From Verrucomicrobiota bacterium (GTDB taxonomy: Bacteria; Verrucomicrobiota; Verrucomicrobiia; Limisphaerales; CAIMTB01), in assembly GCA_963205105.1 (NCBI GenBank), contig CAUJJW010000190.1:1-64000 (forward strand): a DNA stretch of 64,000 bases, given 5' to 3'. Of this stretch, positions 5,506 to 43,745 are shown piece by piece. The translations under genes were made by a program, and so were the position numbers. Below the pieces are notes generated by a model. It was not told where the DNA came from, searched no databases, and was given only the letters and a program-made list of their open reading frames with translations. Positions within the stretch are counted from its first letter, which is position 1, and each line of letters begins with the position of its first letter.

Positions 5506-6402
5506 ATGCGCACTTCCCTCATTGTGTTCGCCTGTTCCGCCGTCGTGTCCTCCGTTCAAGCCGCCGACGGCTCCGAAACGGGATCCGCCGGGCCCGTTGA
5601 TCTCTCGACCATCGACAAAAGCGGCTACCATCTCTTCAACCCGACGCCACGTGAGTACATGCGCGAGATGAGCACGGATAGGCCGGACAAAACGGAGAGC
5701 CCGTACACCGTCGATGCCGGTCACTTTCAGATCGAGATGGATTTCTTCACCTTCACCCGGGATCGGGACACCTCGGGGGGGGCGGACACGCGGGTCGAAA
5801 GCTGGGCGGTTGCGCCGATCAACTTCAAAATCGGTCTGCTGAACTCGGTGGACCTGCAAACCGTCATCGAGACCTACAATTTCGTGGAGACAGATGACCG
5901 GGTGGCGGGAACCAAGACGCGGCAATCCGGTTTCGGAGATCTGACCAGCCGACTCAAGGTCAACCTCTGGGGCAATGACGGCGGTTCCACCGCGCTTGCG
6001 ATGATGCCATACGTGAAGGCACCTACCAACCAGGACCAGTTGGGCAATAACAGCGTGGAGGGCGGCCTCATCCTGCCGTTGGGAGTGGAACTGCCGGCGG
6101 GGTTTGGTCTGGGGATCATGCCTCAGATCGATATCGTGCGGAACGACGGCCGGAGCGGGCATCACGCGGAAATCGTCAACACCCTGACGGTCGGTCGCAC
6201 CCTCATCGGGGAACTGGGCATGTACGTGGAATTCTTCAGCGCCGTGAGCACCGAGGACGATTCCCCCTGGGTGGGAACGTTCGACATGGGGTTCACGTAC
6301 GGGCTGACGCCGGACATCCAGCTGGATGCGGGCGTGAACATCGGGGTGACCGACTCGGCGGATGACATCAATCCGTTTTTCGGCATCTCGATGCGATTCT
6401 GA
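5506..6402 (+). CDS. Outer-membrane beta-barrel-type protein, phenol-degradation MetA-pathway family
   Basis: This 298-residue protein begins with a clear signal peptide (MRTSLIVFACSAVVSSVQAADG). The mature part starts with REMSTDRPDKTESPYTVDAG, the signature opening of the family annotated as putative MetA-pathway of phenol degradation proteins or outer-membrane transporters, and continues with alternating beta strands to a C-terminal aromatic strand (NPFFGISMRF) typical of barrels inserted by BamA. The ATG at 5506 is chosen because the signal peptide starts there; upstream in-frame sequence is not protein-like. Its substrate is unknown, and the family name should not be read as proof of a role in phenol breakdown. 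Confidence 0.8.
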   Translation: MRTSLIVFACSAVVSSVQAADGSETGSAGPVDLSTIDKSGYHLFNPTPREYMREMSTDRPDKTESPYTVDAGHFQIEMDFFTFTRDRDTSGGADTRVESWAVAPINFKIGLLNSVDLQTVIETYNFVETDDRVAGTKTRQSGFGDLTSRLKVNLWGNDGGSTALAMMPYVKAPTNQDQLGNNSVEGGLILPLGVELPAGFGLGIMPQIDIVRNDGRSGHHAEIVNTLTVGRTLIGELGMYVEFFSAVSTEDDSPWVGTFDMGFTYGLTPDIQLDAGVNIGVTDSADDINPFFGISMRF

Positions 6403-41622: not shown

Positions 41623-42330
41623 TCAGGCCTCTTGAGGGTGGACACCGTCCTGCCGGTGGCGCACCCAGGCGCGCCAGATTCCCAGAACGACGAGGGCCAG
41701 CGCCGCGACATGGTAGCCTGTCACCCTACCGGCCCACCGGAAGGTGTCGCGTTGGAATTCCGTCACGAATCGGAACAGACCGTAGGCGATGAGGTAGGCA
41801 TGGAAGCGTTGTCCGCGGGCTATTGGCGTTCGGCTGAGGGCAAGGGCGATCGCCGCCGAAGTGGCGTGGAACGTCAGTTCCAGGGGCACGATCGGCCACC
41901 GGGCCTGGCCCTGGGAGTCTTCCCACGCGTACCACGCCGAGGGGTCACATGCTTTTCCGAGGCAACACCCATGACTCAGGCAACCCAGGCGGCCGAGAAC
42001 GATGCCGAACGGCACAACCACCGCGAACCGATCGCCGGTGGGCGTCCGATAGTTCAGCAGTTTCTTCGCCCATTCGACCCCGGCATAACCGAACAGAAGA
42101 CCGCCAAGGATGGTTTTTCCCGTGGCCCAACGATACCAGGTTCCCGGCAGCGCCCAGTCCCGCCATCCCTCAGCCAGCAGATAAACCACCTTGGCCCCCA
42201 TGAACGCGCCGATGAGCCCGCCAAGAAAGATCCAGGGAAGCCGGGAATCCTGTTTGGCCGCACGGAACCAGTACCAGGCCGATAGGACGATCGCTCCCAG
42301 CATCCACGCGGAGTAGGACGTCCCGTGCAT
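41623..42330 (-). CDS. Lgt-like (prolipoprotein diacylglyceryl transferase family) membrane protein
   Basis: This 235-residue protein is made of about seven hydrophobic segments and carries the Lgt-type motif GRLGCLSHGCCLGK (113-126), like the GR-x-GCF-x-x-GCC-x-GK form found in many non-proteobacterial Lgt relatives. The ILGGLLFGYAG segment (74-84) also fits. True Lgt moves a diacylglyceryl group from phosphatidylglycerol to lipoprotein cysteines. At 235 residues it is shorter than usual, and its ATG overlaps the stop of the radical SAM gene (TGATG). That coupling suggests it acts with that enzyme, perhaps on a lipid rather than on lipoproteins; this is inference. Confidence 0.72.
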   Translation of the reverse strand: MHGTSYSAWMLGAIVLSAWYWFRAAKQDSRLPWIFLGGLIGAFMGAKVVYLLAEGWRDWALPGTWYRWATGKTILGGLLFGYAGVEWAKKLLNYRTPTGDRFAVVVPFGIVLGRLGCLSHGCCLGKACDPSAWYAWEDSQGQARWPIVPLELTFHATSAAIALALSRTPIARGQRFHAYLIAYGLFRFVTEFQRDTFRWAGRVTGYHVAALALVVLGIWRAWVRHRQDGVHPQEA

Positions 42331-43745
42331 CACAACGAAGCCCGGGTATCGGGGAATCCGGAATAATAGCGGCAGAAGGAATCGAGCTGTCCATCGGGAC
42401 GGATCACGTGGGTGCAGCACCGATCGATGCGGTCCTGGTCCCAGGTCCAGGCGTCCATGAAGGGCTTGATGAACAGACGGAAGGTGTTCGACGCGTCGAG
42501 TTCGAACCGCTTGAGCAGGTCGCCCAACGGCTCGGATTCGCAGCCGCAGCGCGCCAGGTCTTCGGGTTGGTAACGGATCTTGTCGCGCAAAAAGCCCTGC
42601 ACCTCGCGGAAGTCCACGAAATCGCTGATCGACCTCACGGCGCCACCCAAGCGAAGCAGGTAGCCGATGACCGCACAGTTCGGGTCGCCGCACGGCAACG
42701 GTGTGAAGTCTTCCAACCGGAGGCTGCCCCGCGACCCCGCCACCGCCGCGAGAACGATGTCGGCGGTGTTCAATCGGTCCGGAACGGTGGTCATTCCAGT
42801 GACCGGGGAGCCGCGTCCGCTTTCGAACGCCGGCTGAAAACTCACACCCCGGACATGCGGCCACCGCAGGCCATACTCGATGGTGTCCCAGACGTGACCC
42901 AGGTTGCCGCGGGTGACCGTCATCGCCAGCGTCAGCGGAATCGGAATCTCCGCGCACCGTTGAATCGCCTGCTCACGAATCTCCCGAAGGTCCGCTCCGC
43001 GCAGCTTCCGTTGTTCGGCTTCCTGAGGTCCGTCGAATTGAAGGTAAAGCTGGAGCTTTCCGGGACGATGGATGGCGCGGAGCGCTTCGAAGAACGCCGT
43101 TTCCCGGGCGATGCGAACGCCGTTGGTGTTCAGCAGAACGTAATCAATGCGCGGGTGGGCCAGGGTCCAGGCGAGAAGGGCGTGGAACTCCGGATGCAGG
43201 GTGGGTTCGCCGCCGGAGAGTTGCAGGATCTCAATGCCTCCCTTGCGCCGGATAACGCCTTCGATCCGGTCCTGAAGGTTCGCCAACGACGGAGCACGTA
43301 CCGCAGACCCGGCTCCGACCGGCGAATCGGCGTAGCAGGTCGGGCAGGCCAGGTTGCAGGAGTCGACGACCTCGATGAGCGCGAGACAGGTGGCCAGGGA
43401 TTCGAAGGGTGCGGTTCCACGGCCCGCCGCGTTGCGCCCCAGAGTTCCGGTCGGGGCATCGTCGCTGGCGCGACACGCACCTCCGGAGCAGCCACAGGAC
43501 GCGTTGGAGGGATCGCCCTTTGCCAGCCAGTAAAACCGGGCGTCCGAGGCAAGGACCATCGAGGCGGGGCCATGTTCGGGGCATTCGCGACGCAGGACCA
43601 CGCGGGCGGGGTTTTGGCCTTCGCGCACCACTTCAGCGGGGCAGGGGCGTCGGCAGACCGGACAGCGGCTGGTGGTGCGTTTCAGCACCTCGCCGGTCGG
43701 GAGCGGCGGGAGTCGGGGAACCGCGATGGAAGGAGGAATCGGCAT
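42330..43745 (-). CDS. Radical SAM protein resembling tetraether lipid synthase (Tes/MJ0619 group)
   Basis: This 471-residue protein opens with a rubredoxin-like Cys pair (CPVC, 28-31; also CPEHG, 55-59) and a Cys-rich loop (84-91). The radical SAM motif CNLACPTC (C130, C134, C137) and LSGGEPTLHP follow, then the group features YLQFDGP, RGADLREIREQAI and DFTPLPCGDPNC. The C-terminus has KPFMDAWTWDQDRIDRCC and PDGQLDSFC. Extra cysteines at 352, 357, 400, 402, 443, 444 and 458 could hold auxiliary Fe-S clusters. Tes joins lipid tails C-C in archaea; bacterial homologues are suspected in membrane-spanning or branched lipid synthesis. The start is at 43745. It overlaps the Lgt-like gene by one base and follows hisF by 29 bp. 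Confidence 0.78.
   Translation of the reverse strand: MPIPPSIAVPRLPPLPTGEVLKRTTSRCPVCRRPCPAEVVREGQNPARVVLRRECPEHGPASMVLASDARFYWLAKGDPSNASCGCSGGACRASDDAPTGTLGRNAAGRGTAPFESLATCLALIEVVDSCNLACPTCYADSPVGAGSAVRAPSLANLQDRIEGVIRRKGGIEILQLSGGEPTLHPEFHALLAWTLAHPRIDYVLLNTNGVRIARETAFFEALRAIHRPGKLQLYLQFDGPQEAEQRKLRGADLREIREQAIQRCAEIPIPLTLAMTVTRGNLGHVWDTIEYGLRWPHVRGVSFQPAFESGRGSPVTGMTTVPDRLNTADIVLAAVAGSRGSLRLEDFTPLPCGDPNCAVIGYLLRLGGAVRSISDFVDFREVQGFLRDKIRYQPEDLARCGCESEPLGDLLKRFELDASNTFRLFIKPFMDAWTWDQDRIDRCCTHVIRPDGQLDSFCRYYSGFPDTRASL

Follow-up and report, generated by a model that had tools for sequence, protein, structure and literature searches.

A Tes-like radical SAM enzyme and a paralogue of Lgt associated with a small membrane protein ending in cysteine in Verrucomicrobiota

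Gene organisation of the locus

The 64-kb window (the whole stretch of DNA analysed here, 64,000 nucleotides from a Verrucomicrobiota bacterium) encodes a radical SAM protein and, immediately downstream on the same strand, a paralogue of Lgt that we refer to as Lgt2 (Table 1). As the earlier note on this DNA had recognised, the two genes share a TGATG stop/start overlap, the final A of the radical SAM stop codon TGA (42332-42330) serving also as the first base of the Lgt2 ATG. Across 57 homologous loci, the two genes overlap or lie no more than 60 bp apart in 32. The radical SAM gene is present as a single copy in the genome from which the window derives (8.2 Mb, 412 contigs).

Table 1 Features of the locus in the 64-kb window
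Feature	Position	Strand	Basis and remarks
Radical SAM gene, 471 aa	42330..43745	-	rubredoxin-like N-terminal site, N-terminal auxiliary Cys set, CNLACPTC, C-terminal Cys-rich auxiliary domain
Lgt paralogue (Lgt2), ~235 aa	41623..42330	-	Pfam LGT match, ATG start overlapping radical SAM stop
Stop/start overlap TGATG	42330..42332	-	sequence; suggestive of translational coupling

The gene hisF is found 30 bp upstream of the radical SAM gene, whilst rseP and ispG lie downstream on the same strand as the earlier note had reported (all three named from ORF translations). When the flanking ORFs of 80 homologous loci were clustered, no family other than the enzymes was seen in more than 8 of the 80. 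The rseP and ispG neighbours are incidental, since the genes flanking the two enzymes and the small membrane protein described below are not conserved.

A radical SAM protein with the Tes fold

The radical SAM protein matches the Pfam families PF23545 and PF04055 (Zn_ribbon_HMPTM and Radical_SAM, respectively). The earlier note had placed it in the Tes group on the basis of a set of short motifs, each of which is present in the translation: an N-terminal cysteine pair (C28/C31), CNLACPTC (130-137), QFDG (within LQFDG, 235-239), RGxDLR (RGADLR, 249-254), DFTPLPCGDPNC (346-357) and a C-terminal CC...FC set (CC 443/444, FC 458). Superfamily and fold bear this placement out but membership of Tes proper does not hold. 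In the profile search against radical SAM subgroups that had been proposed, the protein falls within the Tes/TrsS superfamily, with the NCBIfam model for TrsS the top-scoring curated model (210 bits against a cut-off of 490) and the Tes model behind it (147 bits against an equivalog cut-off of 450). With both scores below cut-off, the protein is a member of the superfamily with the full Tes fold that is accepted as neither Tes nor TrsS. Among the general Pfam and NCBIfam models, no RRE or SPASM family matched.

The archaeal enzyme GDGT-MAS (PDB 7tol) is the top structural database match (4.5e-36) and the sole full-length solved relative that we found. An AlphaFold2 model of the radical SAM protein, built from 56 homologues (pLDDT 84), was compared with the MJ0619 crystal structure as the earlier note had advised, and superposes on 7tom (Z 36.5, rmsd 2.9, 393 residues aligned, 25% identity). 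The next-best structure is MoaA (Z 18.5), and the peptide maturases SkfB and SuiB show a second-tier likeness to the model.

Conservation was assessed in 54 family members. The radical SAM cysteines C130/C134/C137 (CX3CX2C) and C28/C31/C55 of the rubredoxin-like C-X2-C...C-X2-H site are found in all 54, the fourth position of the latter site (H58) being His in 49 and Cys in five. The C-terminal cysteines are also invariant, as are C352, C357, C400 and C402. In the N-terminal auxiliary region, C84, C91 and C120 are conserved, with a spacing unlike that of Tes C73/C77/C80, no His aligned and low pLDDT. In the 7tol alignment the C-terminal cysteines align but Tes Met439, the labile ligand of the C-terminal cluster, faces a gap. 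The protein is also shorter than 7tol, by around 20 residues before Cys357 and by 31 from Cys357 to FMD. Lipid tails are bound by GDGT-MAS (PMC9433317), in which Tes-type enzymes have two hydrophobic pockets with amphipathic helices, and the shortened segments would correspond to the side of that enzyme bearing the second cluster and, as we infer, the lipid pocket.

A number of individual loci deserve mention. In Roseibacillus ishigakijimensis (L074) a TAA at 6114-6116 breaks the radical SAM frame just before the invariant CGC motif; selenocysteine was considered here and rejected, the in-frame stop being TAA rather than a Cys-aligned TGA. A TGA was noted in the radical SAM gene of genome G335. 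In four loci from soil Verrucomicrobia (L104, L105, L106 and L107) the gene is split between two frames near a variable linker (query ~311-378), possibly through a shared frameshift, a programmed frameshift or an assembly error. Two divergent Tes/TrsS-like genes (L017 and L022, both on G038:C357) lie ~2 kb apart in opposite directions, with no Lgt-like gene within 1.5 kb.

Lgt2 is not the lipoprotein Lgt of the cell

The partner protein had been described as Lgt-like, and matches Pfam PF01790 (LGT) with 74.6 bits (gathering score 24.9, E 1e-20) and the E. coli Lgt structure 5azb in a profile search (3.2e-18). Against the TIGR00544 equivalog model it reaches 40.6 bits, below the cut-off of 118.9. 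A separate gene in the same genome (G000:C277) encodes a canonical Lgt with an intact HGG motif and a TIGR00544 score of 148 bits, thus Lgt2 is a paralogue and not the lipoprotein Lgt of the cell.

His103 of the HGGL motif is essential in E. coli Lgt. In Lgt2 the equivalent residue is L, T, M, V or I in all 55 homologues that we aligned, whilst R115 and R188 (the counterparts of Arg143 and Arg239) are found in 55 of 55, as are the counterparts of Glu243 and Arg246, and that of Tyr235 in 54. For the E. coli enzyme it has been proposed that R143 and R239 work on the phosphatidylglycerol donor and that HGGL binds the lipobox acceptor (PMC4728403). Positions H103, N146 and E151 vary in distant Lgts, some of which have Y, W or F in place of H103 (PMC13251419), so that loss of this His alone is no proof of lost transferase activity. 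The simplest reading of the conserved residues is that Lgt2 would use the same donor as Lgt with a different acceptor.

Linkage and co-occurrence of the two enzymes

Within a set of 58 related genomes, 16 encode a clear orthologue of the radical SAM protein and 42 do not, with G038 having distant homologues only. Nearly all of the radical SAM loci taken from these relatives have an adjoining Lgt2 gene. A scan of named genomes yielded a further view of the family in the form of 80 loci from Verrucomicrobiota and Planctomycetota, with 44-72% identity in the radical SAM protein. In 48 of the 53 named loci for which 3 kb or more of downstream sequence was available, Lgt2 is encoded on the radical SAM strand; one of the exceptions (L136, on a contig of the same length as that of L066) has Lgt2 just past the end of the sampled DNA. 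Among 289 genomes from across the phylum, a close orthologue of the radical SAM protein and a close Lgt2 are found in the same six and in no others, one of the six having the two genes on separate contigs. A mirror-tree comparison of the two families gave r 0.76 (0 of 2000 permutations), a correlation much of which shared descent could yield. The linkage of the two genes, for which the earlier note had proposed such a survey, is conserved far beyond chance.

The public titles of five loci (L039, L062, L069, L072 and L092, labelled as Akkermansia muciniphila, a delta proteobacterium and Kuenenia) look doubtful; their genes group with Verrucomicrobiota or Planctomycetota.

A small membrane protein ending in cysteine

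The loci also contain small ORFs with transmembrane helices, which either directly precede the radical SAM gene or separate it from Lgt2. To collect them, a filter was applied that looked for a hydrophobic segment whose last residue is small (G, A, S, T or M at position -1) and is followed by a Cys near the stop codon. Over the 80 loci the filter returned 105 ORFs, every one of them on the operon strand, with none on the opposite strand. Of these, 93 are close to the enzyme genes: 75 start no further than 1 kb upstream, 17 separate the two enzymes and one lies just downstream. At least one of the 105 (L059:5917-6150) seems to be an ORF that arose by chance within the radical SAM coding sequence. 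A relaxed filter recognised five more, bringing the loci with a small gene to ~70 of 80, each with between one and four copies; some of the ~10 that have no such gene nearby are on truncated contigs. The Cys rule is partly built into the filter, whereas the strand and co-occurrence controls are independent of it. In the 64-kb window itself the filter found no small Cys-ended gene, the copy in this genome being on another contig (see below).

The proteins are ~60-160 residues in length and usually possess three helices, sometimes a single helix behind a zinc ribbon. Their N-terminal parts range from Pro-rich to zinc ribbon, the latter often being absent. When 33 diverse members were aligned, no column other than that of the Cys was invariant, although the start Met came close. 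The Cys lies in a lipobox-like context, [F]-[GAV]-[GAS]-Cys, where the last helix reaches its outer end, and is followed by 0-14 residues (mostly 5-12). Phe is found at -3 in 56 of the 105 ORFs and Gly at -1 in 59; as the filter demanded a small residue at -1, it is only the preferences for F, G and A that constitute independent evidence. Lys and Arg account for 13.6% of the residues that precede the last helix and for 6.5% of those in the tail, a charge bias that would place the Cys outside, on the side of the membrane where Lgt works; the Cys is therefore predicted to be periplasmic. An AlphaFold2 model of one small protein (pLDDT 81, pTM 0.50) has three helices, the third of which carries Cys104 close to its end. 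One subfamily has the tail GC-x-x-G-[GN]-Y-x-[LM]-x-[FI]-[HRQ]. Neither Pfam nor NCBIfam has a family that covers the small protein.

In several loci (L048, L050, L072, L074 and L075) a single radical SAM gene is surrounded by a tandem series of different small Cys-ended genes, an arrangement that resembles precursor gene arrays. At L008:3307-3387, and likewise in L034, a copy of the radical SAM 3' end precedes a second small gene, which suggests that the small gene was duplicated in tandem along with the radical SAM tail.

To follow the small protein beyond the enzyme loci, its profile was searched against the 58 related genomes. Of the 16 genomes that encode the radical SAM protein, 14 contain Cys-ended members (13 at E <=1e-6, and G002 at 5.6e-4), as against none of the 42 that lack it, a difference for which Fisher's test gives 1e-11 with kinship ignored. 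The weak matches in those 42 genomes were to long ORFs only, and the ones inspected had no terminal Cys. G012 and G022 have the one-helix type of small protein; the profile match in G012 (L149) was rejected on inspection as a false positive, the likely true copy being of the one-helix zinc-ribbon type (L007). Several copies are unlinked to the enzyme genes, that of the window's genome included: it is located at G000:C46:16000-16338 (L109:1501-1845), matches at E 8.5e-21 and ends GFGCAVGGYQLNFH, a tail pattern that the unlinked copies of G004, G003 and G007 have too. Such copies indicate that the association is more than proximity. Whilst the profile was built partly from linked copies and thus favours the positive genomes, the unlinked copies and the negatives are unaffected by this, with the exception of L109, which joined the profile only after being found with an earlier version (A4).

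Divergent trios of radical SAM, Lgt and small-protein genes are also present in other lineages of the phylum (L129, L130 and L131). Two genomes outside the window's class combine a divergent radical SAM protein and a divergent Lgt with a small protein ending LLLIGSCFALFSFSQ or LLLIGSCFALVSYN, whilst in a third, from the window's class, genes for an Lgt-like protein, a radical SAM protein and a small protein ending LLGLGVCFNILKDL are consecutive. The trio or the enzyme pair is found in the cultured strains Haloferula sp. BvORR071, Roseibacillus persicicus (KCTC 12988, L075) and Luteolibacter marinus.

The radical SAM protein, Lgt2 and the small membrane protein thus form a conserved three-component association with one invariant Cys. 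The earlier note had proposed a two-gene module that joins or modifies membrane lipid tails; the conserved Lgt2 linkage and a plausible lipid theme remain of that proposal, which had left out the third, Cys-ended component.

A possible protein modification system

The invariant C-terminal Cys of the third component points to a protein-linked substrate. Our preferred reading, to which we assign a probability of roughly 0.5, is that the radical SAM protein and Lgt2 are the enzyme pair of a membrane-bound three-component protein modification system with the small protein as its likely substrate. Judging from what is known of its family, Lgt2 probably transfers diacylglyceryl from phosphatidylglycerol to the C-terminal Cys of the small protein at the periplasmic face. 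Family knowledge likewise suggests, at about even odds, that the substrate of the Tes-like enzyme is a lipid tail or other hydrophobic chain. Working from the cytoplasm, this enzyme would carry out radical chemistry on the tail or on the Cys and form a C-C or C-S bond on the lipid, whether ahead of its transfer or once the diacylglyceryl is attached to the Cys. The product would be a modified, possibly cross-linked or membrane-spanning, C-terminal lipid anchor. A dedicated system in which Lgt2 lipidates the Cys and Tes-like chemistry then couples the attached tail to another chain, giving a protein-linked and possibly membrane-spanning anchor, is conceivable though doubtful.

Several points weigh against the modification system. 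The altered H103 position means that Lgt2 may not catalyse canonical transfer. With the Cys outside and radical SAM enzymes cytosolic, action of both enzymes on one Cys would need lipid-mediated access. There is no dedicated signal peptidase, the window's genome encoding only one LspA. Finally, around one locus in eight (~10/80) has no small gene nearby, and in the window's genome the gene is unlinked.

The enzyme pair might instead modify free membrane lipids by tail joining, giving membrane-spanning or tetraether-like products, with the small proteins as accessory subunits. The close structural match to GDGT-MAS and the retention by Lgt2 of the phosphatidylglycerol-binding arginines both favour this, as does the proposal that bacterial Tes homologues make branched GDGTs (PMC8941075). 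We nevertheless think it unlikely: the best curated model is TrsS rather than Tes, Met439 is absent, the lipid-pocket segments are ~50 residues shorter, and both the invariant lipobox-like C-terminal Cys and the tandem, sequence-diverse small genes are left unexplained. Those same small, diverse and often tandem genes (up to four per locus) beside a radical SAM gene lend some weight to a RiPP-like pathway, in which the radical SAM enzyme would modify the C-terminal Cys peptide (with a thioether or Cys-derived cross-link, for example), Lgt2 would lipidate it and the tail would be released as a lipopeptide. The second-tier likeness to SkfB and SuiB and the conserved tail of one subfamily also fit, but the lack of RRE or SPASM matches among the general models, the predicted location of the Cys outside and the absence of a conserved protease or exporter gene from the cluster make such a pathway a rather poor prospect.

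The small protein might also be no substrate at all, and instead anchor the radical SAM enzyme to the membrane or serve as its redox partner, with the Cys as metal ligand or electron relay. Such a role would account for the zinc ribbons of some members and for genes that overlap or are closely spaced. The zinc ribbon is often missing, however, the sequences are very diverse for a binding partner and occur in tandem copies, and the Cys is predicted to be periplasmic, away from the iron-sulphur enzyme; we regard this as improbable. Finally, Lgt2 could be an ordinary duplicated lipoprotein Lgt beside an unrelated radical SAM enzyme, as its PF01790 match taken by itself would allow. Linkage conserved in two phyla and exact co-occurrence already contradict this, as do the separate canonical Lgt and an acceptor motif changed in 55 of 55 homologues, and there is very little chance that it is correct.

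If the modification system exists, bacteria may have an undescribed form of lipid attachment or rearrangement at the C-terminal end of membrane proteins. Lipoprotein-type modification would then extend to the C-terminus, and enzymes with the Tes fold would gain a protein-linked substrate. Among the bacterial Tes homologues that serve as markers of branched GDGT producers (PMC8941075, PMC11868695) there may be enzymes that have a different role. The presence of the trio or enzyme pair in cultured strains makes direct testing possible.

Comparison with known systems

Each of the component parts has known relatives, whereas the combined system appears from its sequences to be new as far as we have found: we came across no known system that joins a Tes-family radical SAM protein, an Lgt paralogue and a membrane protein with a C-terminal Cys, and a literature search on C-terminal lipoboxes or lipo-invert returned nothing relevant. 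By name alone, the NCBIfam model NF058595 (invert_tail, lipo-invert putative C-terminal anchoring domain) shares the idea of a C-terminal lipid anchor. It was considered as the identity of the small protein and rejected: its best score, in one small protein, was 11.3 bits (cut-off 37), and across 289 Verrucomicrobiota genomes nothing passed the threshold, nor did any control genome match.

Compared with Tes/GDGT-MAS (MJ0619, 7tol/7tom), the radical SAM protein has the same overall fold, rubredoxin-like ligands, CX3CX2C motif and C-terminal CC...FC set, but differs in its Tes score (147/450 bits), in having no Met439 counterpart, in a C-terminal region ~50 residues shorter, in the additional invariant cysteines C352, C400 and C402 of its family and in its partnership with Lgt2 and a small Cys-tailed membrane protein. 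The radical SAM (seleno)protein TrsS (NF045646) is the best curated match over the full length, and a PLPC..PxC motif is present in the window protein as it is in the TrsS-like homologue L017; the score (210/490 bits), the invariant C400/C402 and the linkage to Lgt2 and the small protein set the two apart.

Lgt2 has the PF01790 fold of E. coli Lgt (5azb/5azc) and keeps the counterparts of Tyr26, Arg143, Gly154, Tyr235, Arg239, Glu243 and Arg246, but lacks His103, has Cys, Lys or Arg in place of Asn146 and Glu151 (the arm-2 motif) and is shorter. The small protein invites comparison with the bacterial lipobox (L-[AS]-[GA]-C). In a lipoprotein the Cys becomes the lipidated N-terminus of the mature domain, and the Cys of the small protein, C-terminal with 0-14 residues beyond it and with Phe favoured at -3, does not fit this scheme, although here too a small residue precedes an invariant Cys where an N-in/C-out helix ends on the outer side.
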